A stretch of 64,000 bases of DNA from Polaribacter vadi (lineage in GTDB: Bacteria; Bacteroidota; Bacteroidia; Flavobacteriales; Flavobacteriaceae): NCBI RefSeq assembly GCF_001761365.1, contig NZ_CP017477.1, positions 3,648,001 through 3,712,000 on the forward strand, given 5' to 3'. Position 1 is the stretch's first letter. Each line of letters starts with the position of its first letter. Below are positions 11,478 to 63,189 of this stretch, piece by piece. Both the position numbers and the translations under genes were made by a program. Below the pieces are notes generated by a model. That model was given only the letters and a program-made list of their open reading frames with translations. It did no database searches and was not told the DNA's origin.

Positions 11478-11480
11478 AAT

Positions 11481-14400
11481 TTATTGTTTCCTCAAAAGTG
11501 AAAAGTTTCCTTTTTTATTGATGGTTGGTTTTGTGGTATCAGCAGGAATTAATGTAATATTGAACCAATAATCATCAGATGGTAATAATTTACCTTGATA
11601 CATTCCATTCCAACCTTGGCTATCTATTGGTTCTTGTGCTACTAATTTTCCATATCTGTTAAAAATATTGATGCTCACATTTGGATAAAAATCTTTGTTA
11701 GCGCCTTTTACAATCCAAGTGTCGTTTTTTCCATCACCATTTGGTGTAAAGAATTTAGGAAACTGAATTACAGAAACTAACAACATTTCATCTGGTGCAC
11801 AACCATTTTTATCGTTTACAATTATTTGATACACACCACCTTCTAAGTTTTCAAAAAGCGGTTCATCTTGAAAACCGATGATTGGAATTCTTGAATTATC
11901 ATCTGTATTAATAACTGCAAACTGATAGTCTCCAGGACCTAAATTGTTTGTAATTGTATCTATTGAAATCGATAAATTATCTTCACTACCAATGTTATTG
12001 CCTTCATCTATAATTGTAATAAAACTGCGCTCTAAAATAGCTGGATTGGATTCGTTAACAACAATATTTTCTGTTCTTTCACACAAAGTACCATCAGTAG
12101 TAGTTGCAGTAACTGTATAGGTTCCACCACTTGTAATGTTTATATTATCTCTAGAAACTGTGTTTAGAACAGTTCCATTTTCATCTTGCCAAATGTAAGT
12201 GTAGACATCTCTTGCATTTTCTGCAGCAATGTTTAAAGGCAAATCATTTAAACATAAAATTTGAGGTGTTGTCACTGTAAAATCGGGTAATGTGTTGATG
12301 ATAACATCAAAAGTGGCATCATCATTAACACAAAGCGTATTTTTATTTTCAATACGAACAAAAATAGTTTCTGTAGTATTTGTATTTTGATAAGGAGAAA
12401 TAATGGCATCAGTTCCAGCACTTGCATCTGCTTGCGAGTTATGGAAAGTAACATTAAAATCGTTTGGACTTTGAGTTGCTCCTAAAATTTCAGTTATTTT
12501 ACTATCTAAATCGATATTTTGAATAATTCCATTGGCATCATCACCATCTAAAGCATTATCACAATAGGCTAAATTGGTTGGTACCTCAAAAACGGGTTCA
12601 GGGTTTACAATTACATCAAAATTAGAAATTCCGTTTGCACATTGTGTATCATCATTAAAAATACGCACAAAAATTGTTTCTCTATTTGGAGTGCTATTTG
12701 AATATGGAGAACTTAAAGGATTATCTCCATTTCTAGCTTCAGCCAAAGATCTATGATACGTAACTGTATGCGTATTTGGGTCTTGAGTGCCTAAAATACC
12801 AGCAGTTTGAGAATTTAAATCAATAGATTGTGAAAAACCATTTCTTGCAGAACCATCGGAATTTTCATCACAAATTTCTAAATCATCAACAAAATTGGCA
12901 ATTGGAATAGGATTTACAACCACATTAAACGAAGTATGATCTGTAAAACAAGCAGTTGCGTTATTAATAACTCTCACAAAAATTGGTTGCGAATCACGAG
13001 TTGTATTTGCAAAAGGTGATGTTTGAGCATTATCTCCAGTATTGGCATCAGCTGCAGAAAGGTGATAGGTTACTGTAAAATCAGCAGGGTTTTGCCCATT
13101 TAAAATACCAGCAGTTTGGGATTCTAAATCAAAAGATTGTACAATTCCATTGGTTTCATCACCATCAATGGCATTATCACAAAGTTCTAAATCTGGAACA
13201 TTTTCAGCTTTAGGAACTGTATTTGTTTTTAAATATAATTCACCAGTTCCAGAACAGTTATTGTTGTTTTTATTGGTGATTTTAAAATAAATAGTTTGTC
13301 TTGTAACATCTGAAGGAAAATTGATGTTTCTGTAATTTCCAATGTCAGGAATTTCATTTACAACAGCAGTTCTATCTGCTCTAGTTTCAAAATAAGAGAT
13401 TTCTAAATCTGGTTGTAAAAGAGGAGGGAAGAATGCTAAAATTTCAGCATTAGCTTCCCTAAAATCGAAGTTTGTAATTCCATCAGTATCATTATTTGCA
13501 GGACCATTTGTGCCATCAGTTTGTAAAAAATCGTCACAAACAGCATCAAATTCTTTGTTGTAAGCCACATCTGCAGCAGCTTCTACTTCTAAATTTATTT
13601 TAGAAATTCGGTAACAATCTTCAGAGGAAATAGTTCTTACCCAAGCTTCTCCATTTTGATTTACAGGATAACGTAATTCATCTGTAACCAAAGGAGTTCC
13701 TGCAATTGCATCTGCTTCAGTAGCAAAATATTGGAAAGTTTCATTGGCAGAATTTGTAGAAATACTAATTTCTGCTTCTGTAAGATTTACAGTCGATATT
13801 CTGTCTAAATCATCATCACATTGCAATAAATCTACTTCTGCAGTTACAATTGGTAAAGGATCAACAACTAGTTCTAAAGTTGCATCTGCATCATAACAAT
13901 CAGTATTGTCTTTATTTTCTACTCTTACATAAACTGTTTGAGAGTTCGTAACAGAATAGTTCGCATTTTTATCTATAATTGTTGTAGCATCATTTATATC
14001 TGCACCAATTTTAGTTGTGTGATATGTAATATTATATTGATTATGATCTAAAGTTCCATAAATTTCAGAATGTTTTGTGTTTAACAGAAATGTATTTACA
14101 ACACCATCAGTATCTGAACCACTTTCTAAATCATCACAAATTCTATAAGGTTCTGGTTGTGTAGGAATTGGTAAATCTGTAACAGCTAAAGTAAAATTTG
14201 TAATTTCAAAACAAGCATCGATAGCTTTTTTGTTGTGCACTCTAGCAAATATTGTCTCAGAACTAAAAGCTGTAGGGTTTGTATATACTTTTGGTAAAGC
14301 CTCTGAATTGGATAAAGCATTTGCTTTAGAAGTAAAATAAAGTACTTCAAAAGTATCAGGATCTAAACCATTCAAAATTTCATTGTTTTTAAGAGTCTCT

Positions 14401-16137: not shown

Positions 16138-17481
16138 ATGTCTGATGATTTTGATTTGTTAGAAACGAACTCTAACCAAAAAACTGAAAAAGTAGAAGTA
16201 AACTGGGGTAAAGCTGTAGATTCCATGAAATCTAAATTGGCACAAGAGGAAGATCCAGAAAAACGCCAAAAAATTCTAAATGCTACATTAGATGATGTTG
16301 TGCAGATGGCCGAAAAAGATAGAACTACACTTTTAGACGCTATAAAAGATCTAACAGATTATCAAGATGAAGTGGGCATTATGTTCGAGAAATTTTCGTC
16401 ATTAAATCCTGCTGAACAAAAAGTAATCGATGATGCTCAGAAAGAATTAGAGAGAGCTAGAATAGAATTAGAAGACGCTCAAAACAAACCAGACACTTGG
16501 TGGAATAATTTGTGGGGAAGGAAATCTAAAATCAAAAAAGAAGAGCAGGAATTTGCAGAAGCAGAAAAAACACGATCAGGAGCAGACAATAAAGCAAAAG
16601 CATTATTTCAACAAAGAATAGAAAGTGCAGATATACAAACACTTTTAGGTGAATTATCTTTTAAATCTCAAGCTGCTGTAAATCGATTAAAAAACAGAGA
16701 AGTTGAAATTAAAGAAGTTGAAGAAAAGTTGAAAATGGCAATTGTAGAAGCTTCTAAAAATCATACAAAAGCATTAGAAAAGAAAAAAGAAACTGAAGAT
16801 AAATTAGAAGAGCAATATGCTTTGTTAAAACAATCTCGCCAAGAATTAGATGAAATTGCAGACAAACAATCCACAGCATATTCAGAGGCAATTGGAAAAG
16901 TAACCACAATTGAGCAAAAAGTTGAGGAATTAGAAGGTTTAAAAAATGCTTACACAACGTTGGCTGCAAGTAAAGATAGTTTTGTGCATAAACACAATTT
17001 AACGATTAAAGTTTTAACTTCTTTACGTTCAAATTTGCAAACTCATAGAGCAAAACTAAAGTCAGATACAGAAGAGCGTTTAAAATATTATGATGGTTAT
17101 GTTGTGGCTTTAAAAGCAAGAACAGATCAAGAATTTGCAGCAATTTTGGAGCATTTAGGAGTAAAAACAGATGAGCATATTGGAGCTACTTTAGCATCTA
17201 TGCACTCTGCAAGTGCAAGAGCTCGTCAAGAAATGATGGATAATATTCCTGTTCACGAAAAAGTTATGAATGGGGTTTATAGTACGTATGCAGAGGCTTT
17301 ACAGGAAATTAGAGAAAAGGATTCTGACATACAAAAGAATTTTGCAGACAGATATGGAATTGATATGAAAGAGATTTTTGAGGACTATTATAAAGCAGAT
17401 AAGGAAGCTTCAAATTTAGATGTGGATAAAACTCCAGAAACTCCAAAGAAAGATATTTCTAATGACGATATGTTAAGCTAA
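16138..17481 (+). CDS. Coiled-coil protein, first gene of the AAA+/NudK cluster
   Basis: A 447-residue cytoplasmic protein with no signal peptide; the ATG at 16138 (MSDDFDLLE) is chosen over an upstream TTG. Most of it is predicted long helix: heptad-rich, charged stretches near residues 95-150 and 190-280 (for example KKKETEDKLEEQYALLKQ). A WWNNLWGRK segment near residue 122 breaks the coil. The C-terminus is acidic and disordered. The overall look recalls TelA-like or filament-associated coiled-coil proteins, but I cannot assign a family. It starts the plus-strand cluster, and its distance from the later genes is filled by a repeat and a toxin-antitoxin pair. Confidence 0.8.
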   Translation: MSDDFDLLETNSNQKTEKVEVNWGKAVDSMKSKLAQEEDPEKRQKILNATLDDVVQMAEKDRTTLLDAIKDLTDYQDEVGIMFEKFSSLNPAEQKVIDDAQKELERARIELEDAQNKPDTWWNNLWGRKSKIKKEEQEFAEAEKTRSGADNKAKALFQQRIESADIQTLLGELSFKSQAAVNRLKNREVEIKEVEEKLKMAIVEASKNHTKALEKKKETEDKLEEQYALLKQSRQELDEIADKQSTAYSEAIGKVTTIEQKVEELEGLKNAYTTLAASKDSFVHKHNLTIKVLTSLRSNLQTHRAKLKSDTEERLKYYDGYVVALKARTDQEFAAILEHLGVKTDEHIGATLASMHSASARARQEMMDNIPVHEKVMNGVYSTYAEALQEIREKDSDIQKNFADRYGIDMKEIFEDYYKADKEASNLDVDKTPETPKKDISNDDMLS

Positions 17482-17540
17482 TCTTTCTGTAAAGATGTAA
17501 TAATTCAAGTTATATGTTTATTAAAACTATATAATTTTTA

Positions 17541-17630
17541 GGGCGTTTCCCTGATGAAAAATCAGGGTCAGGCTTTCCATTATATCTTTTTTCAGAAAAG
17601 AAAAAAGGATGTCATTTCAATCCTTAACGC
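17541..17630. repeat. Dispersed structured repeat, copy 1 (variant)
   Basis: The element is bounded by GCGTT (17543-17547) and AACGC (17626-17630), encloses a hairpin CCCTGAT/ATCAGGG (17549-17567) and a second hairpin CTTTTTTC/GAAAAAAG, and contains the core TTTCCAnTATATCTTTTT ... AAAAAGGATGTC shared with copies at 26741 and 62971. Similar intergenic repeats are, from memory, widespread in Bacteroidota. Confidence 0.7.
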
Positions 17631-17681
17631 AACAGCATTTTTGAAAATGTATTTATTTTTTAAAGTTACAGATGTTATTTG

Positions 17682-17733
17682 ATTTTTATATTTATAAAAT
17701 ATAAATATAAAATATAATTATTTGTTATATTTG
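17682..17733 (+). promoter_or_regulatory. Promoter and A/T-only tract upstream of the toxin-antitoxin pair
   Basis: Bases 17682-17723 contain only A and T with repeated ATATAAA units, followed by TATATTTG at 17726-17733, an exact -7 box 17 bases before the antitoxin ATG. The repeated AT units could be operator sites for the ribbon-helix-helix antitoxin; that is inference. Confidence 0.5.
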
Positions 17734-17750
17734 TATAAAATTAATTTAAA

Positions 17751-17996
17751 ATGGCAACATTCACATCTTCGTTACCTGATAGTTTATTAGATAAATTATC
17801 AGTTTTAGCAAAAGAATTAAAACTTCCTAAAAATAGGCTTATAGAAAATGCTTTAGAGTTATACTTAGAGCAAATAGAAAAAGCGAGTTATATAAAATCG
17901 TATAAACAAGCTGCTACAGATGAAGATATTTTAAAAGTTGCAGAAGAAGGGGTGCAAGAATACTTTACTGCTATCAATGATACAGAAACTAACTAA
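17751..17996 (+). CDS. Ribbon-helix-helix (CopG-type) antitoxin
   Basis: An 81-residue protein whose N-terminus fits a ribbon-helix-helix DNA-binding fold: a short strand (ATFTSSLPDSL) then two helices (LLDKLSVLAKELKLPKNRLIENALELYLEQI). The C-terminal part (about residues 50-81) would bind the toxin. It overlaps the MazF-type toxin gene by one base (TAATG), the usual coupling of toxin-antitoxin pairs. It probably represses its own promoter. The pair sits inside the AAA+/NudK cluster and looks like an inserted module. Confidence 0.85.
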   Translation: MATFTSSLPDSLLDKLSVLAKELKLPKNRLIENALELYLEQIEKASYIKSYKQAATDEDILKVAEEGVQEYFTAINDTETN

Positions 17997-18328
17997 TGAA
18001 GCAAGGCGAAATTTGGGAATTGTATTTAAATCCTACAAAAGGCAGTGAGCAAAATGGAAGAAGACCTGCTGTAATTATTAGTGGCGATATGTTAAACAAA
18101 TATTTACAAGTGGTAATTGTTTGTCCGTTAACAACGAGCATCAAAAATTACAAAGGAAATTTAATTTTAAAACCAAATGCAAAAAATGGTTTATCTAAAA
18201 TTTCTGAAGTTTTAACCTTTCACGTTCGTTCGGTTTCTAAAACAAGATTGGAGCAAAAAATTGGTGAGATTCCGTTAAAAGATATTGAAGTTATCAAAAA
18301 AACCTTAAATGATATTTTGAAGTATTAA
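17996..18328 (+). CDS. MazF/PemK-type toxin (mRNA interferase)
   Basis: A 110-residue protein of the MazF/PemK family. It shows the characteristic opening KQGEIWELYLNPTKGSEQNGRRPAVIIS (contacts near the active site), VVIVCPLTTSI in the middle and SEVLTFHVRSVSKTRLEQKIG towards the end. Family members cut single-stranded mRNA; the cleavage site here is unknown. The RRP and T residues typical of the active centre are present, so it is probably functional. It is translationally coupled to the antitoxin and ends two bases before the next cluster gene. Confidence 0.9.
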   Translation: MKQGEIWELYLNPTKGSEQNGRRPAVIISGDMLNKYLQVVIVCPLTTSIKNYKGNLILKPNAKNGLSKISEVLTFHVRSVSKTRLEQKIGEIPLKDIEVIKKTLNDILKY

Positions 18329-18330
18329 AT

Positions 18331-19368
18331 ATGATTACAACTCCATTAGATTCTGCTATTTTAAACTCTAAAGAGCAATACATTTTTTACCATAAAATGG
18401 TCGATTTTGCTCTGAAAGAAATTATTGTGAGCATGCAACAAAAGAATTTGTGTACACAACAAGAATTAATTTTCTTCAAACAATATTCAGATTTATTGTT
18501 GTATTCTATTGAGGCAATGCGTATTAAATATATGTATGATGAAGAAGATAATATGAAAGTAGATTTAACAGACTCTGGTTTTCCTAATTATTTGGAGTTT
18601 CGATTTCTGTTTAATGATTTAGAGTTAAGAGAACAGCATTTAGACAAATTAGTGGATACAGATGCTTTAAAAGAACAATTTTTAGATACACTTTTACGTA
18701 AAAAAGAATCAATTAAAAAATCCGATTTATTCAAAGCTTCGTCTATTATTTATTACACAACAGTAGATAAAAAATACATCTTTAATCGATTTGTGCAAGG
18801 CAAAATTTTAGAAGCGCCAAAAGATACAAATTACGATTATGTTACAAGCTGGAGTTTTTATGATGTAAGTCATAACAGGCCTTTTATTTGCTTTATGTAT
18901 TTTGATTATGATGGAAAAAATGCCATCAATGATAAGGAGAAAATTTATCAAACGTTAAAAGAAAGTGCAGATAGGGAAATGGCTTTAGATACTATGGCGT
19001 ATAATATTGATAGAAAATTACCAAATTTAATTCCAAAGCATTTTAAAAGAATCGATTTAGGACCTTTTCATAATGTATTTGCAAAAGATGAAAACGAAAT
19101 TACACATGCCATTTTAAGCGGAATTGCTTGTAAAACAATTCCATTAGAATCGTATGCAGTTTCCATGAATATTGATGAAGTATTTGCTGGAGAAACATTC
19201 ACAGAAGGTAGCTTTTTTAACAAGCAAACTATGCAAAAATGGAGTGATGTTTTAAAGCAGAAATATCTTTTTGCTCCACATAGAATCATTCAACTTTTGC
19301 ATAATCAAGTTCCTAGAACTTTAGATACATTAGCAAAAGAACCTATTTTGATGAGTGAAATTAAGTAG
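18331..19368 (+). CDS. Unassigned 345-residue protein of the AAA+/NudK cluster
   Basis: I do not recognise the family. The protein is soluble (no signal peptide or membrane segment), helical in the first 100 residues (MVDFALKEIIVSMQQ), then mixed alpha/beta with a possible beta-domain (SWSFYDVSHNRPFICFMYFDYDG near residues 171-193). It has few conserved-looking catalytic patterns. It starts two bases after the toxin gene and is followed 156 bases later by the AAA+ ATPase, with which it probably forms a functional unit because the following genes overlap or abut. Confidence 0.75.
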   Translation: MITTPLDSAILNSKEQYIFYHKMVDFALKEIIVSMQQKNLCTQQELIFFKQYSDLLLYSIEAMRIKYMYDEEDNMKVDLTDSGFPNYLEFRFLFNDLELREQHLDKLVDTDALKEQFLDTLLRKKESIKKSDLFKASSIIYYTTVDKKYIFNRFVQGKILEAPKDTNYDYVTSWSFYDVSHNRPFICFMYFDYDGKNAINDKEKIYQTLKESADREMALDTMAYNIDRKLPNLIPKHFKRIDLGPFHNVFAKDENEITHAILSGIACKTIPLESYAVSMNIDEVFAGETFTEGSFFNKQTMQKWSDVLKQKYLFAPHRIIQLLHNQVPRTLDTLAKEPILMSEIK

Positions 19369-19406
19369 ATAGTTTTCAATTAGAGATAAACAATTGAAAC
19401 GAATAA

Positions 19407-19439
19407 AGACCTCACAGGTTTTTAAAACCTGTGAGGTCT
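19407..19439. repeat. Perfect palindromic repeat
   Basis: Two 16-base arms (AGACCTCACAGGTTTT and its complement) flank one T. It lies between the 345-residue gene and the AAA+ gene. The CTCACAGG...CCTGTGAG type is one of several dispersed flavobacterial palindromes (from memory). It has no T tract of terminator type beyond its own arm. Confidence 0.8.
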
Positions 19440-19524
19440 GAAATACAAAATGATTTAAAAGATAAAAAAGGATAGATTGACGAGCTGAATTTTGAACTTG
19501 AACATTAAACCTTGAAACAAAAAA

Positions 19525-21483
19525 ATGAACCACAATTCCACATTTCCAATAAAACAAAATGAACTTGATATGCTTCGAGATGAAGCAACTGGGTATTTAA
19601 AATCTGTTCAATGGGAGCAAAGTAATAAAGCAAAAAGTAGAGATAAAGACGCTAAAGATGATTCTATCTTGCTGTATTTATCAAGAGCAAATAATGGGAG
19701 CAATTTAGAAATTACATCAATTTCTAAAACTATTTTAGGGTTAAAAAAACGGTTATTACCAGATTCAATTGCAATTCCTGTACATTTAAATCAGACGTTG
19801 TTTGCGGTTCAAGAAGGCCTTACTTTAGGAATTTGGATTAAAGATTCCTACTATGATGCATCAGGTTTATCTTCTTTAAACGAACGTAAATCAGCATTAA
19901 ACTCATCAGGAAAAAGAGAATTTGAAAGTAAATTACAAACAGCAACAGCTTTTCAATTATTTGCAACTGCTTATAAAATTTTACACGATTTAAAATCTTT
20001 TGCAAGTGACGATTTATCTGTGATGAAGCAGAAGTTTGCAGGAATTCCAGAAGTATCATTTTTATCACCTTTAAAAGGAATTGCGTGTGCTTTGTTTTAT
20101 TTTGATAAATATTTAGGACATCCAGAAATTATAAAAACCGACAAAGATGTTGTCGATTTTACAGTTGTTTATTTTGAAGCTTTCATTGATGAAATTCAGT
20201 TGCGAAAAAGCAATTTAGAATATACAGAAACGATTGTTGATAGAACGTATAAATTAGAAAATTCAGATTTTGCAGTTGCTGGTTGGGAAAATGTTTTTCA
20301 AGGAACTGCCAAAAGTGTTGAATTTAATAAAATTCAGTTTGAGCAAATTGTTGGGAACAAAGATGCCAAACATTTTGCACGCAGATTAACAGAAAGAATG
20401 TTGAGTTATGATTTTGAGGCGCAAAAAAATCCGTTTCAAGAATTAGGAGGTTTTATGCCTGTTTTTATGGGGTATGGAATTCCAGGTACAGGAAAAAGTA
20501 TGTTAATTGCAGCCATTGCAACTCGCTTAAAGGAACATTGTGATCATTTAGATATTCCGTTTTTATTTCATCCAATGCCAGATACATTGATTTCTACTTT
20601 TCAAGGAGGCTCTGCAGAAAAAATGGTGGAATGGATGAAGCCAATGCAAGATCCAACAAAAATTATTTTTGCACCTATTGATGATGCAGAAAATAATTTG
20701 CAAGAAAGAACTGCACAAGGAGTTTCTGCAGGAGTTAAAGAAGTTATTGGAGTTTTCTTGCGATATACAGAAGGTGCTTATGCAGTAAATTATGGAAATT
20801 CTTCTGTGGGTTTATTTACAAACTTACCAGAAATGTTAGACAAAGCTGTGCTTTCTAGAATTCAAGGACGTTTTAAAATTGATGGAGCAAGAACTGAACA
20901 CGATTTTTTAGATCAAGATTATATTTGGTGGAAAAAATTTGAAAAAACAATTCCAGATTTTGTAAACATGCAAAACCCTAGGAATTACGATTTTCTAAAA
21001 GACCAAGGTGTTACAAAAAGCATGGGAGAAATTCTAAATTCAGTTGAAAAGCCAAGTGAAGAAAGAGTTTTAGAAGCCTATGAAAAAGCTGTTCAAAAAC
21101 ATACAACAAACGAACATCATTTTTTTGCAACGTTGTATAAAGAAATTCAGAAAATATTTCCATTCTTTTCATCAAGAGATGTAAGAAATATTCAATCTGC
21201 CATTTCATTACGTTTAACAGATTTTGATTTGGAGCAAGATTGGTTTGAGAATCCTGAAATTTATTTCAAAAAAGACTATCAAACAAAATTTAATATGTTG
21301 CAAGAATTAATGAAAAGCAACATGAAAGGTTTAGATTTTTCTGAAATTAGAAGACAAGAAGTGGTACGTTATTTAGACAATGTTGCCACAATTGCAGATA
21401 CAGATTTTAAGCGTAAAGTAGATGCAAGAGTAAATCAATTAAACATCGATTTAGAAGCAAGAAGAAATTTTGAAAATGAGTAG
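19525..21483 (+). CDS. AAA+ family ATPase of the AAA+/NudK cluster
   Basis: A 652-residue protein with one AAA+ module in its second half. Walker A is GIPGTGKS (residues 318-325, Lys324); a Walker B-like strand IIFAPIDDAE (380-389) has Asp386-Asp387 and Glu389 rather than the usual DE; sensor 1 and arginine finger region reads TNLPEMLDKAVLSRIQGR (Asn433 to Arg449), close to classical AAA proteins. The first 300 residues are a helical domain of unknown function. It overlaps the nudK gene by eight bases (ATGAGTAG), so the two are translationally coupled. It may remodel membrane or coiled-coil partners encoded around it; that is inference. Confidence 0.88.
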   Translation: MNHNSTFPIKQNELDMLRDEATGYLKSVQWEQSNKAKSRDKDAKDDSILLYLSRANNGSNLEITSISKTILGLKKRLLPDSIAIPVHLNQTLFAVQEGLTLGIWIKDSYYDASGLSSLNERKSALNSSGKREFESKLQTATAFQLFATAYKILHDLKSFASDDLSVMKQKFAGIPEVSFLSPLKGIACALFYFDKYLGHPEIIKTDKDVVDFTVVYFEAFIDEIQLRKSNLEYTETIVDRTYKLENSDFAVAGWENVFQGTAKSVEFNKIQFEQIVGNKDAKHFARRLTERMLSYDFEAQKNPFQELGGFMPVFMGYGIPGTGKSMLIAAIATRLKEHCDHLDIPFLFHPMPDTLISTFQGGSAEKMVEWMKPMQDPTKIIFAPIDDAENNLQERTAQGVSAGVKEVIGVFLRYTEGAYAVNYGNSSVGLFTNLPEMLDKAVLSRIQGRFKIDGARTEHDFLDQDYIWWKKFEKTIPDFVNMQNPRNYDFLKDQGVTKSMGEILNSVEKPSEERVLEAYEKAVQKHTTNEHHFFATLYKEIQKIFPFFSSRDVRNIQSAISLRLTDFDLEQDWFENPEIYFKKDYQTKFNMLQELMKSNMKGLDFSEIRRQEVVRYLDNVATIADTDFKRKVDARVNQLNIDLEARRNFENE

Positions 21484-22054
21484 AATAAAAAACCTTAAAA
21501 AGACATTATTATCTGATAATTATTATACACTTTCTAAGTTTAATTTCGATTATCAAAAATCTGATGGAAGTTGGGTAAATCCAATGCGTGAAGTGTATGA
21601 ACGTGGTCATGGAGCAGGAATTCTGTTATATAACACCACAAAAAAGACAGTAATTCTCATCAAGCAATTTAGGTTGCCAACGTATTTACACGATCATAAA
21701 GACGGATTTTTAATTGAAATTCCTGCAGGCTTGTTAGATGAAGATAATCCTGAACAATGTATTATTAGAGAAACTGAAGAAGAAGTTGGTATTCGAATAA
21801 AATCTGTAAAGAAAGTGTATGAAGGATATTCTTCTCCAGGCGTTTTAACTGAAAAAATGCATTTTTTTGTGGGTGAATATACAGAGGATATGAAAGTGAG
21901 TAAAGGTGGAGGTTTGGCAAGTGAAAATGAAGATATTGAAGTGCTAGAACTTCCATTTACAGAAGCTGTAAGAATGTTAAATGAAGGAGAAATTGTAGAC
22001 ACAAGAACCATTGTGTTATTACAATATGCACAAATTCATAAATTGTTAGATTAA
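21476..22054 (+). CDS. nudK: NudK-type Nudix hydrolase (GDP-mannose pyrophosphatase family)
   Basis: A 192-residue Nudix protein. The Nudix helix shows AGLLDEDNPE then RETEEEVG, with the spacing of E. coli NudK, and the family signatures LSDNYYTLSKFNFDY, ILLYNTTKKTVILIKQFR, SPGVLTEKMHFFVGEY and EDIEVLELPF all match NudK by memory. NudK hydrolyses GDP-mannose and related sugar nucleotides in E. coli; the substrate here is not known. Translation starts at the ATG at 21476 inside the AAA+ gene end, implying coupling, and the next gene starts one base after its stop. Its place in this cluster suggests a nucleotide-derived signal or substrate (inference). Confidence 0.9.
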   Translation: MSRIKNLKKTLLSDNYYTLSKFNFDYQKSDGSWVNPMREVYERGHGAGILLYNTTKKTVILIKQFRLPTYLHDHKDGFLIEIPAGLLDEDNPEQCIIRETEEEVGIRIKSVKKVYEGYSSPGVLTEKMHFFVGEYTEDMKVSKGGGLASENEDIEVLELPFTEAVRMLNEGEIVDTRTIVLLQYAQIHKLLD

Positions 22055-22055
22055 A

Positions 22056-23291
22056 ATGCAAAAACTAAAACAAGCAAATCTATACAGAAACGAACTAATT
22101 CCCATTAGTGGAAAATTAGTAGAACGTTACAATAAATGTTTGGTAAAATTAGGTTTTACACCAACCAAATTAACGTCATTTTTTATAGATGGAATTGGTT
22201 GGAGTCCAGAAATTGCTGAAGAAAAAAATGAGGTTTTTTACTTAAATAATGGCGAAGCAAATCCGCATGCAATTATAATTACACCCTTGCAAAAAGGACT
22301 GCCAATTTACAATCCATTTCATTCTTTTGATAGAGAATTAATGAAATTGGTGTTTAAAACACACAATGAGAAAATCAATAATATTACAAGAGATTCAGCT
22401 ATTTGTGTAGATTTTGATCAAAATATAGATGCTTTTTACGAACCTTTAGATGTTTTAAAATACCAAGATGTAAAGATCAGTTTTCGGTTGATAGACGATT
22501 TAGATAGAGCAAAAGAAGCACAATTACAACTCATAGAAAAGTTCCATAAAGACAACAATTTTATTGATGAAAATTTGCATCAACAGTTGTTATCATCAGC
22601 AAAAAAATATGGCGATTTAAGAGAAAGAGATTTAAGTTTAGAGCCGATTGTTTTTACAACAGATTCGTTTTTTACAGAAGCTTTTGGAGGAGTTTATTTA
22701 TTAAGAAACTTTATTACACCTATCTTAATTTTCGAGAAAAAAGAAGCCTATAAAGAAGCGATTAATGATACCACTTATGATGTTTTAATGTTTCATATTT
22801 CGCAACCTGAACTGGTTACACAATTAAGAGATCATTTAATTATTGAATGTAATTTGGCACAAGAAGTACCCACAAAAAGATACGAACGCATTAAAAGTTT
22901 TATTTTTGGAGAAGCTTTAAAAGATACCCAACACCCTGTAAATGATATCTTAATAGACAAAATGTTATTCAAAAGTTATTTGAATAAAATTGATTTAGAA
23001 ACACGTAAAAAAGTAATGAGTGTAGAGCGTTATTTGGATAAAAAACAAACAAACAAAGACACTAAAATTAATGATATTGTAGATCAAGAATTTTATTTTG
23101 CGTTACACAAACCACATTCGTCATTAAGAGCAAATCATCAAGATTTAATTTGGAAATTACTGATAAACATTGCACCAAAAGATGTGTTATTTTGGTATTG
23201 GTATGACAAAGAAGATTTTTACAAAAACTTTAAATCGTGGCAGGAAACAAAGCAAGATTGGGTAGTGGAAACGATCAAGAATGGGTTTTAG
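22056..23291 (+). CDS. Unassigned 411-residue protein of the AAA+/NudK cluster
   Basis: No family recognised with confidence. It is a soluble alpha/beta protein without signal peptide. Notable features are a GWSPEIAEEKNEVFYLN stretch near residue 47, a helical central part, and an aromatic, Trp/Tyr-rich end (DVLFWYWYDKEDFYKNFKSWQETKQDWVVETI). It begins one base after the nudK stop, so it belongs to the same transcript. It is followed by a 437-base gap that contains a MITE-like element and nested palindromes. Confidence 0.75.
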   Translation: MQKLKQANLYRNELIPISGKLVERYNKCLVKLGFTPTKLTSFFIDGIGWSPEIAEEKNEVFYLNNGEANPHAIIITPLQKGLPIYNPFHSFDRELMKLVFKTHNEKINNITRDSAICVDFDQNIDAFYEPLDVLKYQDVKISFRLIDDLDRAKEAQLQLIEKFHKDNNFIDENLHQQLLSSAKKYGDLRERDLSLEPIVFTTDSFFTEAFGGVYLLRNFITPILIFEKKEAYKEAINDTTYDVLMFHISQPELVTQLRDHLIIECNLAQEVPTKRYERIKSFIFGEALKDTQHPVNDILIDKMLFKSYLNKIDLETRKKVMSVERYLDKKQTNKDTKINDIVDQEFYFALHKPHSSLRANHQDLIWKLLINIAPKDVLFWYWYDKEDFYKNFKSWQETKQDWVVETIKNGF

Positions 23292-23350
23292 GTCTATTGT
23301 AAGAAAATTGAAATCATAAACCAAAATAGAAAAGTTTAAAATTGTATATT

Positions 23351-23585
23351 TATAATTACTATTGTTCGATTAAATTTTGCTTCTATGGTGCTTTATAACA
23401 TTATTGTGTTTTTTTTATTAATATTTCGCTCTTACAGAGCTAAAAATCCCAGAGGGATGAAATATTAATAGAAAATTATTTCAAAATTTTGTTAAGCCCT
23501 AGAAGGGCGATATATTAAATATTTGGTTATTTAGTATGAGTTTTGGAAGTTTATAAAGTTTTTAATCGGACAACAATAATTTATA
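23351..23585. mobile_element. MITE-like element with about 24-base imperfect terminal inverted repeats
   Basis: The left end (23351-23374) and the complement of the right end (23561-23585) share TCGATTAAA/CCGATTAAA and an AT-rich outer part, 17 of 20 bases in the inner block. No coding capacity. Inside is a cloverleaf-like structure: an 11-pair stem (23417-23427 with 23459-23469) enclosing hairpins GCTCT/AGAGC and TCCC/GGGA, plus a third hairpin GCCCT/AGGGC at 23496-23508. The element separates the 411- and 173-residue genes. Confidence 0.6.
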
Positions 23586-23607
23586 ATCATAAAATATTGA
23601 ATTTGAA

Positions 23608-23699
23608 ATCCTGCAAGGTTTTTTTTGAACCTTGTAGGTATAGTAGGATAAAAATTAAATAGAAATAATACCTACAAGGTTTTGAAAACCTTGCAGGAA
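23608..23699. repeat. Nested palindrome (CCTGCAAGG family)
   Basis: Two hairpins, CCTGCAAGGTT...AACCTTGTAGG (23610-23638) and CCTACAAGG...CCTTGCAGG (23671-23697), are near-complements of each other, so the whole forms a larger inverted repeat with an AT-rich centre. It ends about 30 bases before the next start codon, so the structure may fall in the 5' leader of that gene. Confidence 0.75.
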
Positions 23700-23728
23700 A
23701 AACCAAAAACTAAACTTCAAACTCAACT

Positions 23729-24250
23729 ATGACACTAGAACTAATAATTTTCATCGCCTCAATTTTATTTGGAGCCGTTATTTTCTGGAGAGAGTCTCAA
23801 GGAAATGGTGTGTATCGTTTTTTTAACAAAATGATGAATTCCAAAGAATTACAAATGCAAGCAACCAATAAAAAAGGCTTTGTGTATCAGCAATCATTTT
23901 TATTAAGATTGGTATTTATTACAGCCTTATTTTTAATCGGAATTGTAATCACGCGTTTTTTAATTCCAATAGATTTAGCAACAATTTCGCTTTTTGCTTC
24001 CATGATTTTTGGGACTTTAATAGGCACATATTTGGCAGGATTTATTTTTAAATCATCAGCAATTATAGACGAACAATCAGAATCTTTAGAAGATAAATTT
24101 CAAGATGTTGTAGAAAGTGGAAAAGGGTTTATCAACGATTTAAAAGCCAAAGAACCAGTAGCTATAGAAAAAGCACAAGAAGAAATAGAGAAGCCAAAAG
24201 TAGAGGCGAAAAGCGCAAGAGAACGATTGAAGGATAAAGGTTTGTTATAG
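23729..24250 (+). CDS. Small membrane protein of the AAA+/NudK cluster
   Basis: A 173-residue protein with three predicted membrane segments: residues 3-20 (LELIIFIASILFGAVIFW), about 59-80 (LLRLVFITALFLIGIVIT) and about 87-110 (ATISLFASMIFGTLIGTYLAGFIF). The C-terminal 60 residues are charged, probably coiled-coil and cytoplasmic (EKAQEEIEKPKVEAKSARERL). No enzymatic motif. It resembles a membrane anchor and could recruit the AAA+ or coiled-coil protein (inference). It is separated from upstream cluster genes by inserted repeats. Confidence 0.8.
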   Translation: MTLELIIFIASILFGAVIFWRESQGNGVYRFFNKMMNSKELQMQATNKKGFVYQQSFLLRLVFITALFLIGIVITRFLIPIDLATISLFASMIFGTLIGTYLAGFIFKSSAIIDEQSESLEDKFQDVVESGKGFINDLKAKEPVAIEKAQEEIEKPKVEAKSARERLKDKGLL

Positions 24251-24268
24251 TCGTATTTAGTTATTTTG

Positions 24269-24946
24269 ATGAATATATTTGAAGATTTTATTAAATTTTA
24301 TAATAATCGGAATTCTGATAATTGGAATTTTGCAGAAAATTATATTCCTGATTTTTTCGAACTAAAATATCTAATTCATTGGGATTATGGAATTATAGAT
24401 AATTTTCCGTTTGACAAATATCCATTGGAAAATGGGACATTTGAAGAAATGAATAAGAGAGTTAGAATTGAACAAGAATTTAATGTTCTTTTAAAAGAGG
24501 AAAAATTTTATAAACAAATTTCGATCTTAGAATTAGCAAAAAGATTTAATGTTACATTTTCACATAAAACAATTGATTTAATTCCTGAAACACCAGGAGT
24601 TTCAGTTTTAGATAATTTAAGCATAGCTAAACTCAAAAAATCATTAAAATTACTTTCAAAAAAAGATAAGTTAAACTTATTAATTTTTGATGCAGGTTAT
24701 CATAAACACCATTTTGATTTCAAAGAAAAATATATAAATATTGATTTAGAAAAATATTTTGAAATCCAAGATATATTTAGCTTTCAATTAGATACTTGTC
24801 TGTTTCCAGATAACCGAGATTGGTGTTTAATAACTACTGAAGAAGTCCCAATATTATTTGGATGTAAAAAAGAAATTGAAAATGAGATAATAAATAAATT
24901 CGCTTTAGAATTATTTGAATTAAAAAATAAAGAAGAAATACATTAA
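24269..24946 (+). CDS. Orphan protein, immunity-like in appearance
   Basis: A 225-residue soluble protein from ATG 24269; a TTG just before is not needed. I do not recognise a family. The composition (very rich in Asn, Lys, Phe, Ile) and the C-terminal DTCLFPDNRDWCLITTEEV motif recall immunity proteins of polymorphic toxins in Bacteroidota, but this is a weak resemblance. It lies between the two membrane proteins of the cluster, is more AT-rich than they are, and looks like a later insertion. Confidence 0.6.
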   Translation: MNIFEDFIKFYNNRNSDNWNFAENYIPDFFELKYLIHWDYGIIDNFPFDKYPLENGTFEEMNKRVRIEQEFNVLLKEEKFYKQISILELAKRFNVTFSHKTIDLIPETPGVSVLDNLSIAKLKKSLKLLSKKDKLNLLIFDAGYHKHHFDFKEKYINIDLEKYFEIQDIFSFQLDTCLFPDNRDWCLITTEEVPILFGCKKEIENEIINKFALELFELKNKEEIH

Positions 24947-25008
24947 ACAAATATTAAGTACGAGTAAGAAACTTCAAACTTCATACTCCCAACTTCAAAC
25001 ATATAAAT

Positions 25009-26685
25009 ATGATCAAAACATATTGGCATAAAGGAACAAAACAAAAAAGAAACCTAATAATTCTAGGCATCATTTTTCTTGCACTAATTTTCTTTCTAAG
25101 AGACGATTATCAACCAGCATTATTGTTTTTTAGAAAGTTTATTTTCATCATTTTACTGTGTTTAACTGTACTGTTTTTTGGATTAAGAAAATTCAGGAAA
25201 TCAGCAAAAACAGGCAGTAGAATCGGAATTTTAGCACTATTAGCAATCTTTTTCGGCGCAATTTATTACGTAGGTTTTTATTCAAAAATGTACGTTTATA
25301 TGCAAACCTATAATGTATTTAACGATTTAAATAGAATCGAAATTGTAGAATTGCCACTAACGCAAAACGAAAGAATTCAGCCTTTAAGAAACATTTTTTC
25401 GATGGCGAACGAATCTGTAGGCGAAACCAAAGACGTTTCTTTGCCACATTTGGTAAGAGTAGACGATTCCAATCAATGGACAATGGCTATTCAGCCAACT
25501 GAAAAGTATTATTGGCAAGGAATTAAAGACAATACAGAAGAGATTTTTTCGGTATCAAGTACCACACCTTTTCCACGTTTTTCGAGCGAAAACAGAATTC
25601 CTGTAACCTTTTCAATTGGCGAATCTTTACGATTTAGTAGAAATACCTACAATGCAGTTGTGCAACGTTTAAACCCTTGGATGCTGTTTAATTACGAACC
25701 AAGTGACACTTATTATATGAAAAACGACAAAGGTGCTTGGGTGCAAGTCGTAAGTCTCATAAAGTGGAAAGGTTTCTTTTTTCCTTATCCAAGTTTTGGT
25801 GGAGTCATGGTTGTAGAAAATGGCGAGCATAATTTTAGCGATTATTTAGAGCGAATTACCATCGGAAAAGGAACGTACATTTCTCCACAAGAAATGAAAA
25901 ACTACAACTATTTAACCAAGCAAAATACCTTGTCAGAAAAAGTATCGCGTTTGCAAGCAGAAAGTTTAAAGTTTTTGGCAGGTTTTTCAGATCCTTTACC
26001 TTGGAATATGAAAAGTGCCGTAAAAATTCCATTAGCACCAAAAGACCAAAATCAGCAACCTTATGTAACCGATTTCGATTTTTCTGACACCAAAGTTGGT
26101 GCCTTTTCAGGCTTGTATCATTGGTTTGGTTTAGAACCAATTGGTAATGAAAGAACCAGTTTAAGTTACAGCGTTTTTATTCCTGCAGATGGTTCAAATA
26201 ACTTTTATTTTTACGATCATGCTTCCAAAAAAGAAGGTTATGCAGGCGTTTCTGCAATGCCCTTAAAAGTAAAAGAATCTAAAAAAGAGTACGATTGGAG
26301 CTCAAATGCGCCAGTAGAATTTAGGCCTTATATAAAGAATATTGCAGGTAAAAAAAGGATGTTTTTTCTAGGCACAGTTTCCACGATTAGCAAAGACAAT
26401 CCTCAGCAATTTGATGGTTCTGCAACTCCAGATTTGGCTTTGGTAGATAGCGAATACAGAGATGTTGTTTGGATAAATGCTAAAAAACCAAGTACTTGGA
26501 ATCAGGAATTGTACATGCAATTAAATGAAGCTTGGAGAACCAGCGAAAACACCAACATATATTTCGAAAAAGAGAAAACTGTTTTAGAGCAAAACCGTCA
26601 AATTTTAGATTCCATTCAGTTATTATCTAACCAACAAAAAAGATGGAAGATATACAACGTTTGCAAAAACAAATCGATTCTATAA
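25009..26685 (+). CDS. Membrane protein of the AAA+/NudK cluster, apparent C-terminal frameshift
   Basis: A 558-residue protein with three N-terminal membrane segments (about residues 15-31, 41-57 and 71-92) followed by a large, probably extracytoplasmic domain of about 400 residues (rich in aromatic residues, with YPSFGG and GLEPIGNERTS motifs) and a C-terminal coiled coil (EKTVLEQNRQILDSIQLL). In the present reading frame the coil ends in an unlikely tail after an A6 run at 26636-26641. One extra A would continue it as MEDIQRLQKQIDSIKMNN and stop at 26699. No family recognised. It is the last gene of the cluster. Confidence 0.75.
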   Translation: MIKTYWHKGTKQKRNLIILGIIFLALIFFLRDDYQPALLFFRKFIFIILLCLTVLFFGLRKFRKSAKTGSRIGILALLAIFFGAIYYVGFYSKMYVYMQTYNVFNDLNRIEIVELPLTQNERIQPLRNIFSMANESVGETKDVSLPHLVRVDDSNQWTMAIQPTEKYYWQGIKDNTEEIFSVSSTTPFPRFSSENRIPVTFSIGESLRFSRNTYNAVVQRLNPWMLFNYEPSDTYYMKNDKGAWVQVVSLIKWKGFFFPYPSFGGVMVVENGEHNFSDYLERITIGKGTYISPQEMKNYNYLTKQNTLSEKVSRLQAESLKFLAGFSDPLPWNMKSAVKIPLAPKDQNQQPYVTDFDFSDTKVGAFSGLYHWFGLEPIGNERTSLSYSVFIPADGSNNFYFYDHASKKEGYAGVSAMPLKVKESKKEYDWSSNAPVEFRPYIKNIAGKKRMFFLGTVSTISKDNPQQFDGSATPDLALVDSEYRDVVWINAKKPSTWNQELYMQLNEAWRTSENTNIYFEKEKTVLEQNRQILDSIQLLSNQQKRWKIYNVCKNKSIL

Positions 26686-26740
26686 AAATGAACAACTAGG
26701 GTATGCAAAACTTGTTTCAGTATTTTGTTTTATTTTTTTA

Positions 26741-26814
26741 GGAGCTATTTCCAGCTTTCCACTATATCTTTTTGCGAAAAGCAAAAAGGATGTCGTTTCA
26801 ATCTGGGCTAGACT
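26741..26814. repeat. Dispersed structured repeat, copy 2
   Basis: Outer stem AGC...GCT and CCAG...CTGG with a five-base left bulge (TATTT), and a distal hairpin CTTTTTGC/GCAAAAAG, with the core TTTCCACTATATC and GGATGTCGTTTCAATC. It is nearly identical to copy 3 at 62971 outside the hairpin tip. It follows the last gene of the AAA+/NudK cluster. Confidence 0.75.
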
Positions 26815-26961: not shown

Positions 26962-28806
26962 TTATTTACTTAATGCTTTTAATATTCTTTCCTCGTTTAT
27001 TACTATATCTCGAAACAAAACGTGTGGAAATTCATTATATTTTGATGTTTTAAATGCCTCTAAAATATTAGATAGAGTAGAAGCTGTAATTAGAGATAAA
27101 TTCATTTCTGTATCCATTTCACAGTCTGTGACAAAATCATCACTAAATTCTGGAGCAACAAGTAAAATTTTAACAATTCTGAAATTATTTTTCAGAGCTA
27201 AATTTTGATAAGATTTTAATTGCCTTGAAACAGAACTAAACTTATTATAACCTTTTTCCTTGCTTGTTTTACATTCTACAATTATAATTTCGTTGTTTTC
27301 CAAGTTTAAAAGAATATCAATCATATCCTTTTTTGTATTCAGATTATTTTTAAAAGTGTCATCTACATTAAACCCTAAACCTTGAAATATTATTTTTGTT
27401 AAATCCTCGAATTTAATTCCGAGTTCACTTTCCTTGACTGTAATTCCGTTTTCTTTTAATAAATTGAGATTTCTGTAAGCAACGTTTTCATAATTTTCTA
27501 AATATAAATTCTCAACATCTTTATAATGTTCTAGTATATTTAAAATATCGTCACCACGTTGTTTTACTCCATTATCTTTAATGAAACTGGTTAAATCTTC
27601 TTTAAGAATTAAGTCTAAAATATCTCTCGGCTTTATATTGTAATCAAGTAAAAAATCTGCTTTTAAAACAAATTCATCCTGTAATTCAAATTGATCTTTT
27701 ATCTGTTTATTTAGTTTTGGAAGAGATTGATTAAGTTCAGATAATAATTTATCAAAACCATCTAAAGAAATACCCACTTTTTCATCACGCTCAACATTTT
27801 CAAAGTGTTCAACAAGACTATTTATTTTATCGCCTAAAGTACTTCCTTTTAAATTTGAAATATTTAAACCCTTTTCACAAAGTTCATTTAAAGTCTTTTT
27901 CTTTTCAGTTAAAGTGCTTCCTGGTTTATAAATATCTTCTAGAAGTAAATTATTAAAAGATACTCCTTCTTTAATTATTTCCTCAATTTTTTGAGCGTAA
28001 GATAATTTTCTATCGATATTATGCTCTCTACCAATTTGGTTTATAATTGGTTCTCTCAATAATTTCAGAGTTCTTCTATAAAATTTAGTAGCGATTTCTT
28101 TTTTTCTGACTTTACGTAACAATCTTACCATTTCGTCTGCAACATAGATTGTATTTTCTTTATTTGAAAAAAAGATAACTCCAATATTTTTTAAACCTTT
28201 TATGACTTCTTGAATATCAATTTTTTTTATTGGTAAAATTGAGTAGTTTATTAACTTAACTTCTTCTTGTGATAATCCTAATTCTTTTGATAAAGTTATA
28301 ATTATTGATAATTCATCTGAAGTTATTTTAGCGTCTCTATTATTTGCTATATCATTTTGATAAGCAGTTTGTAAACAAGATTTATAAATTCTATAATCTC
28401 GTTTTCTGATAGCACTTAATTCAGATTTATCATTATCAAAGTCAGAGTTTAAACCTTTAATTTTTGCTTTCAGATTTTTAATTTCTGTTTCATATAATCT
28501 TGAAAACCAATCTTGTTTCATTATGCAATTTCCATCACGTATAATTATATCAATTAAAATATCTAATTGTGATGTAATTTCTTGAAATTCACATTTGATA
28601 TGTTCTTGAAATTCATTTGAAGTTAAGGCAAATACATTAGATATATTTTGATTATCAACTGATTTTAAACCTTTATCAGACGAACTTAAAATTTTATCAA
28701 TTTCTTTTCCGTTTTTTGGGTTTTTCGTGATAATATTATCTATTATTTTAATAAATGAGTTCTTTTCAATTGAACCAAGTTTATCTAAAATTTTTTCTAA
28801 TTTCAT
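26962..28806 (-). CDS. Mrr-like PD-(D/E)XK nuclease-domain protein
   Basis: A 614-residue protein. The first 450 residues are helical and unassigned, with coiled-coil stretches (ETEIKNLKAKIKGLNSDFDNDKSEL). The C-terminal 150 residues look like an Mrr-type restriction nuclease: FEDLTKIIFQGLGFNVDD near residue 470, MIDILLNLENNEIIIVECKTSK with Asp near 496 and E-C-K near 509-511, then a QLKSYQNLALK helix. Such domains cut DNA, often modified or foreign. The gene stands alone against its neighbours, suggesting a defence role (inference). The candidate -7 box is at 28879-28886. Confidence 0.75.
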   Translation of the reverse strand: MKLEKILDKLGSIEKNSFIKIIDNIITKNPKNGKEIDKILSSSDKGLKSVDNQNISNVFALTSNEFQEHIKCEFQEITSQLDILIDIIIRDGNCIMKQDWFSRLYETEIKNLKAKIKGLNSDFDNDKSELSAIRKRDYRIYKSCLQTAYQNDIANNRDAKITSDELSIIITLSKELGLSQEEVKLINYSILPIKKIDIQEVIKGLKNIGVIFFSNKENTIYVADEMVRLLRKVRKKEIATKFYRRTLKLLREPIINQIGREHNIDRKLSYAQKIEEIIKEGVSFNNLLLEDIYKPGSTLTEKKKTLNELCEKGLNISNLKGSTLGDKINSLVEHFENVERDEKVGISLDGFDKLLSELNQSLPKLNKQIKDQFELQDEFVLKADFLLDYNIKPRDILDLILKEDLTSFIKDNGVKQRGDDILNILEHYKDVENLYLENYENVAYRNLNLLKENGITVKESELGIKFEDLTKIIFQGLGFNVDDTFKNNLNTKKDMIDILLNLENNEIIIVECKTSKEKGYNKFSSVSRQLKSYQNLALKNNFRIVKILLVAPEFSDDFVTDCEMDTEMNLSLITASTLSNILEAFKTSKYNEFPHVLFRDIVINEERILKALSK

Positions 28807-62970: not shown

Positions 62971-63115
62971 AAGCTATTTCCTGCTTTCCACTATATCTTT
63001 TTAATTTCGTCATTGCGAATCAAGCTTTTTGCTTGATGAAGCAATCTGTTTGTCAAAAAAAAAAAGTGCTTTTTAAAAAGCAATTAAAAAGGATGTCGTT
63101 TCAATCAGGGCTAAA
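62971..63115. repeat. Dispersed structured repeat, copy 3 with nested insert
   Basis: The outer part matches copy 2 almost base for base (AGC...GCT; CCTG...CAGG with TATTT bulge; TTTCCACTATATC; GGATGTCGTTTCAATC). Bases 63006-63083 form an insertion at the hairpin tip, with its own CGTCATTGCGAA/GAAGCAATCTG repeat and hairpins TCAAGC/GCTTGA and GCTTTTT/AAAAAGC. Confidence 0.75.
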
Positions 63116-63189
63116 CTTATTTATTTTAAACAGTACTTTTTAAGAGCAAATTATTTTTTTATTTATAATCAGAAAAAACATTTTATTAC

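Follow-up and report, generated by a model that had tools for sequence, protein, structure and literature searches.

An AAA ATPase gene set of Flavobacteriaceae with a four-gene core shared with Alphaproteobacteria

The DNA analysed here is a 64,000-nucleotide stretch of Polaribacter vadi (contig NZ_CP017477.1, positions 3,648,001 to 3,712,000), referred to below as the window. Between positions 16138 and 26685 it carries six genes that almost certainly form one system: a genuine, conserved and apparently undescribed one. Four of the products, namely a coiled-coil protein, a 345-residue protein, an AAA ATPase and a DUF6638 protein, constitute a cytosolic core that two phyla have kept as a unit with fixed gene order. 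To this core, the Flavobacteriaceae and alphaproteobacterial lineages each add their own, unrelated integral-membrane proteins. The set is best read as an inner-membrane machine driven by ATP, the mechanism of which we infer.

A preliminary description of this DNA had grouped these six genes with a seventh, encoding a NudK-type hydrolase. All seven lie on the forward strand as described, with the hydrolase gene overlapping the AAA gene by 8 bases and the 411-residue gene starting one base after it. The end point given for the group, 26699, belongs to a stop codon in a different frame; the 558-residue gene itself stops at 26685.

16138..17481, forward strand: coiled-coil protein of 447 residues (open frame); core
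18331..19368, forward strand: soluble protein of 345 residues without a Pfam family; core
19525..21483, forward strand: classical AAA ATPase of 652 residues (PF00004); core
21476..22054, forward strand: NUDIX hydrolase of the NudK/AdpP type (TIGR00052; ATG at 21476); optional accessory
22056..23291, forward strand: DUF6638 protein of 411 residues (PF20343); core
23729..24250, forward strand: protein of 173 residues with three transmembrane segments; Flavobacteriaceae membrane partner
25009..26685, forward strand: protein of 558 residues with three transmembrane segments and a large soluble domain; Flavobacteriaceae membrane partner

Hydropathy analysis places three transmembrane segments in each of the 173- and 558-residue proteins and none in the coiled-coil, 345-residue, AAA and 411-residue proteins. 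The 411-residue protein had been called unassigned, which is not entirely so: it matches PF20343 (127.6 bits against a cut-off of 27), the DUF6638 family of unknown function. Pfam and NCBIfam gave nothing above cut-off for the coiled-coil, 345-residue, 173-residue and 558-residue proteins, nor for a 226-residue protein of the window.

Gene order and co-occurrence in Flavobacteriaceae

Outside the window's genome we obtained 106 full-length AAA matches, 13 from a same-genus set and 93 from among 299 Flavobacteriaceae genomes. From these, 40 loci (2 and 38, respectively; 67–94% identity) were picked by hand with a preference for long contigs, and about 20 kb around each was analysed. The order coiled-coil, 345-residue, AAA, DUF6638, 173-residue, 558-residue, all on one strand, is found in 38 of the 40. 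Counted singly, the AAA gene is present in all 40 loci and each of the other five in 39. Both exceptional loci (L107 and L104) belong to genomes that keep all six genes, but in separate places; L107 lies on a 27.9-kb contig, and its genome (G248) has the coiled-coil and 345-residue genes on other contigs. As a baseline, no family outside the set is commoner than an ABC-F-like gene (recognized by eye) about 5.7 kb upstream, which occurs in 21 of 40 loci. This difference, together with the matching presence patterns in the 299 genomes, argues for more than a chance association. Median gaps between neighbouring genes range from −17 to 164 bases, values that are somewhat too small because they derive from the longest open frames, and scattered insertions reach 4 kb; operon-like transcription of the six-gene set appears likely. 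Across the 40 loci, the median identity to the window is 77% for the AAA ATPase and 82% for the coiled-coil protein. The pairwise distances of the six genes correlate at 0.75–0.92, which shared species history alone could yield. Among the 120 AAA relatives listed, those with names are Polaribacter except for one Lutibacter.

When the 299 genomes were searched with the AAA ATPase, 97 were listed, from which G059, G080 and G260 were dropped (ATPase core only, below 22 bits), leaving 94. The 558-residue protein was found in 96 and, once G153 (18.4 bits) was dropped, in 95. The 345-residue protein is present in exactly the same 94 genomes as the AAA ATPase, and the 558-residue gene in those 94 plus G187. 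A Fisher test on these counts (94/0/1/204) returns 2.8e-78, although the genomes are related and the value is not independent evidence. More telling than this figure is G132, a single-contig genome containing L104, which keeps all six genes split over three places: coiled-coil, 345-residue and AAA genes near 1.83 Mb, DUF6638 and 173-residue genes near 2.585 Mb, and the 558-residue gene near 2.678 Mb. Because all six are retained despite being scattered, their joint presence is not explained by linkage alone. Homologues of the seven genes were looked for in other genomes as a check on the proposal of one system; for six of them, all but the hydrolase, they are kept together there, and the check did not refute it.

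A shared cytosolic core with lineage-specific membrane partners

In a phylum-wide sample of 392 genomes that includes the window's own, PF20343 occurs in six, which are the six with a full-length AAA match and are all Flavobacteriaceae. Outside that family, every match to the AAA query in the sample was short and weak (below 24 bits), and almost all of them fell in the ATPase core. None of 14 control genomes contained PF20343. The AAA query also found matches in 30 plasmid records; 20 of these, from Burkholderia, were dropped as their match covers only the ATPase core, and the other ten are from Vibrio, Sinorhizobium, Shinella and Rhizobium. All ten have a DUF6638 match nearby, one of which covers only 15% of the protein. 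Five plasmid loci show the order coiled-coil (about 360 residues), a protein of about 370–420 residues, AAA (631–638 residues) and DUF6638. A DUF2333 gene follows in the Sinorhizobium and Shinella loci, but not in the Rhizobium locus or the two from Vibrio. Aligned by hhalign, the window's coiled-coil protein matches the product of the gene that opens the proteobacterial operons with 96.6% probability (E 6.3e-10), a value that coiled-coil composition may inflate, and the 345-residue protein matches its proteobacterial counterpart with 99.4% (E 4.9e-21). These profile comparisons support homology between the window and proteobacterial genes.

A search with the Vibrio DUF6638 protein found 245 relatives; among the best 120 listed, those with names belong to Vibrio, to Rhodobacteraceae and, in a few cases, to other Alphaproteobacteria or to unplaced Pseudomonadota. 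When one genome per species was scanned with a proteobacterial AAA ATPase, at least 540 relatives were confirmed among 587 candidate stretches, and the best 80, with alphaproteobacterial titles, were used. These loci hold the coiled-coil gene in 78 cases, the 345-residue gene in 79, the AAA gene in 80 and DUF6638 in 77, and all four stand in one order and on one strand in 75. Four of the five incomplete loci (L130, L163, L165 and L166) lie on short contigs or start close to the AAA gene. In Sinorhizobium meliloti pSymB (L126), the operon is broken between AAA and DUF6638 by an IS4-like element and a gene with an endonuclease domain (11410-13155 of that locus).

The membrane partners behave differently from the core. 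DUF2333 is present in 24 of the 80 loci and DUF1523 in 51, with no locus containing both; 48 of the 51 DUF1523 loci also hold an 88-residue protein with two transmembrane segments. Five loci have neither module: L137, and four (L148, L163, L165 and L172) whose sequence stops no more than about 2 kb from the AAA gene. Transmembrane segments are predicted in the DUF2333, DUF1523 and small proteins, and a comparison of the 558-residue protein with DUF2333 found no relation. The cytosolic four are thus constant, and lineages exchange the membrane module. PMC5256989 describes a type VI locus of Pseudomonas fluorescens in which DUF2333 lies close to a NUDIX gene and an amidase, which echoes the pairing of membrane partner and NUDIX gene in the window.

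Of the two Flavobacteriaceae partners, the 173-residue protein has a conserved, basic C-terminal tail, KSARxRLKDKG, behind a variable linker (17 of 17 aligned sequences, with at most two substitutions). The soluble domain of the 558-residue protein is probably extracytoplasmic, and no sequence relative of this protein was found in the PDB at E 1. The last 15–17 codons of the 558-residue gene, near 26640 and close to an A run, are out of frame relative to its nearest relatives; either the frame has shifted in nature or the sequencing slipped there. An envelope role, as suggested by the preliminary description, can be inferred from the membrane partners.

The NUDIX hydrolase and local insertions

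The hydrolase gene scores 161.4 bits against TIGR00052 (the YffH/AdpP subfamily; cut-off 79.55) and does not reach the cut-off of the NudK equivalog (PRK15009; 212.9 against 234). It is found in 12 of the 40 Flavobacteriaceae loci, each time between AAA and DUF6638, and, in a search within the loci at E 1e-3, in none of the 85 from proteobacteria. The tight coupling of AAA, hydrolase and 411-residue genes is present in the window, but this distribution makes it a local arrangement, and does not support the hydrolase as the constant central member of a nucleotide-controlled complex that had been envisaged. A process controlled by a nucleotide sugar or ADP-ribose with the hydrolase at its heart, the alternative raised at the time, could draw on the overlap with the AAA gene and on the fixed position in 12 loci; with no hydrolase gene found in the other 28 Flavobacteriaceae loci or in the proteobacterial ones, we regard it as extremely unlikely. 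The gap between AAA and DUF6638 holds membrane-like proteins of about 210 residues in several Flavobacteriaceae loci (L079, L081, L085 and L088), with similar starts (IQDYxSxGYxFLLxLGV, by eye).

Two further features lie within or beside the set:

17751-18328: ribbon-helix-helix/MazF-like pair, between the coiled-coil and 345-residue genes
26962-28806, reverse strand: protein of 614 residues without a Pfam family

In the pair, the 81-residue gene encodes a ribbon-helix-helix protein (over cut-off), and the 110-residue gene resembles MazF (4.3e-14) while staying under the equivalog cut-off. Near its C terminus, the 614-residue protein weakly resembles NucS (E 0.027), which is perhaps a nuclease domain. 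Neither the pair nor the 226- and 614-residue genes occur in any of the 40 Flavobacteriaceae loci; the toxin–antitoxin pair and the 226-residue gene are local insertions, and the preliminary description was right to set such genes aside. Three matches to the Flavo-1 RNA lie on the reverse strand (17562-17635, 26744-26813 and 62973-63116), one of them between the coiled-coil gene and the toxin–antitoxin pair and one just past the operon. Palindromic repeats of the form aggtttt...aaaacct are visible by eye at about 19410-19439, 23610-23640 and 23670-23699, in two long intergenic gaps.

Proposed mechanism and relation to known systems

The window's AAA ATPase scores 39.1 bits against PF00004 (cut-off 21.2). 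In an alignment of 17 sequences, 13 from Flavobacteriaceae and four from proteobacteria, all share a Walker A motif (GxPGTGKS/T), a Walker B motif reading IDD, a sensor-1 Asn and two conserved Arg residues. Pore loop 1, of the form aromatic-X-Gly, is F-Q-G in all 13 Flavobacteriaceae sequences and Y-Q-G in the four proteobacterial ones; in classical AAA machines, the aromatic pore loop grips the threaded polypeptide. Among the 60 of 75 matches listed, the best-scoring solved relatives include VCP, proteasomal ATPases, Pch2/TRIP13, Vps4 and katanin, related through the ATPase core at profile level. The protein carries the marks of an active classical AAA ATPase, with the Walker B Glu excepted, and we consider it likely to work by threading. 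A classical AAA domain combined with an aromatic pore loop argues that ATP is used to thread or remodel a protein at the inner membrane.

What is threaded could be a membrane protein. Msp1 and FtsH pull proteins out of the membrane, and an extraction or quality-control system would have the AAA ATPase remove the 173-residue, 558-residue or other proteins, the coiled-coil protein being an adaptor and not a substrate. The pore loop, the presence of the 558-residue protein in all 94 AAA genomes and the conserved tail of the 173-residue protein are compatible with this, but no core protein shows a protease domain (Pfam up to E 1). Because the membrane partners vary by lineage while the coiled-coil protein is constant, the latter fits a constant client better, and we judge extraction unlikely.

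The coiled-coil protein begins with an acidic motif, M-S/A-D/E-D/E-FDLLE, and usually ends in another, D/E-D-L/M-L-S/G (16 sequences). These ends and the basic 173-residue tail look like docking motifs; which partner each would bind is a guess. AlphaFold2 models the 345-residue protein with a mean predicted local distance difference test score (pLDDT) of 88.4 and the DUF6638 protein with 91.3. Comparison of both whole models with the PDB gave no convincing relative; a known fold in a part of either is possible.

We therefore propose a membrane machine in which an AAA hexamer would thread a protein via its aromatic pore loop (F/Y-Q-G), the 345-residue and DUF6638 proteins would serve as adaptors and the coiled-coil protein would be the remodelled scaffold or polymer, joined to the AAA ATPase or to the membrane subunits through the short charged end motifs. 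The 558-residue protein would sense or hold something outside the inner membrane, the NUDIX hydrolase would be an optional local addition outside the mechanism, and the whole would serve to maintain or reshape an inner-membrane assembly. As stated in full, this model has in our view slightly less than an even chance of being correct. A bolder version is possible but doubtful: a bacterial membrane-remodelling machine with a polymer unrelated to PspA and ESCRT-III, in which a classical AAA ATPase drives another coiled-coil scaffold through two adaptors of unrecognized fold, and the same cytosolic engine is plugged into different membrane subunits (the 173- and 558-residue proteins, DUF2333 or DUF1523).

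Several observations weigh against the proposed model. The position of the Walker B Glu, the usual catalytic residue, is occupied by Asp in all 17 aligned sequences, which could slow or alter ATP turnover; the PF00004 assignment is based on the remaining motifs and the score, and normal catalysis is not claimed. The proteobacterial coiled-coil homologues lack the acidic C-terminal motif. Two upstream neighbours tested in Vibrio carry no transmembrane segment, and the next downstream gene is annotated mfd, so that no membrane partner was recognized in the Vibrio locus. L137, a full-length alphaproteobacterial locus, lacks DUF6638 as well as both membrane modules. Finally, G187 holds the 558-residue gene and a NudK gene without the AAA, 345-residue, coiled-coil, DUF6638 and 173-residue genes; the 558-residue protein may act alone there, or the others may have been lost recently or fall into an assembly gap (about 60 contigs).

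No named system with this gene set was found in the open-licence literature, in agreement with the preliminary description. An anti-phage or conflict system is suggested by the weak similarity of the AAA core to the IetA profile (2.3e-06 for the window and 6.8e-07 for the Vibrio protein), by a match of the TRIP13 profile to the S. meliloti AAA ATPase (1e-05) and by patchiness within the genus, where 13 of 35 genomes have the AAA gene (the window's own not counted). However, the IetA match is confined to the ATPase core, and unlike IetAS the conserved set has no IetS-type protease (Pfam, PADLOC). The slow evolution of the AAA and coiled-coil proteins, the lack of a recognized effector nuclease or protease in the core and the absence of AAA matches in phage records (E 0.01; one weak AAA-core match in viral contigs) make this very unlikely. 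TelA of the Ter systems, a helical protein in a stress-like operon, calls the set to mind, yet the hhalign probability against one TelA sequence is 0.2%, and TelA (PF05816) was not found in the window's genome (G000). As for the family of the GDP-mannose pyrophosphatase NudK and of AdpP, it contributes an accessory gene of the YffH/AdpP subfamily, under the NudK equivalog cut-off and not constant in the system.

A parallel in overall composition is found with Vps4/ESCRT-III and the bacterial phage-shock (PSP) neighbourhoods with PspA and AAA ATPases, which exist according to PMC11237479: a classical AAA ATPase, a coiled-coil partner in the cytosol, and membrane proteins. The solved relatives of the window's AAA ATPase also include Vps4. 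A phage-shock or ESCRT-like stabilization of the membrane, with the coiled-coil protein as a diverged PspA/Snf7 relative, would account for these shared parts, and the window's genome has no PspA match. Against it, the coiled-coil profile aligns to an eight-sequence PspA alignment with an hhalign probability of 0.4%, none of 34 members matches PspA or Snf7 (Pfam, E 0.01; at sequence level only), and at least G011 and G014 hold both the AAA ATPase of this set and PspA; such a relationship is quite unlikely. Unlike Vps4, the window, Vibrio and S. meliloti AAA ATPases carry no MIT domain (Pfam up to E 1), and unlike ESCRT-III and PspA systems, the set has two further core proteins, the 345-residue and DUF6638 proteins, without a recognized counterpart. 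If the inner-membrane machine proposed here is real, about a third of the sampled Flavobacteriaceae (94 of 299) and many Alphaproteobacteria hold an unnamed ATP-driven envelope machine with a constant engine and an exchangeable membrane end, which can be tested directly in culturable alphaproteobacteria. DUF6638, DUF2333 and DUF1523 would gain a common context, and the set would offer a new case of how AAA engines and coiled-coil proteins have been paired outside the PspA/ESCRT line.

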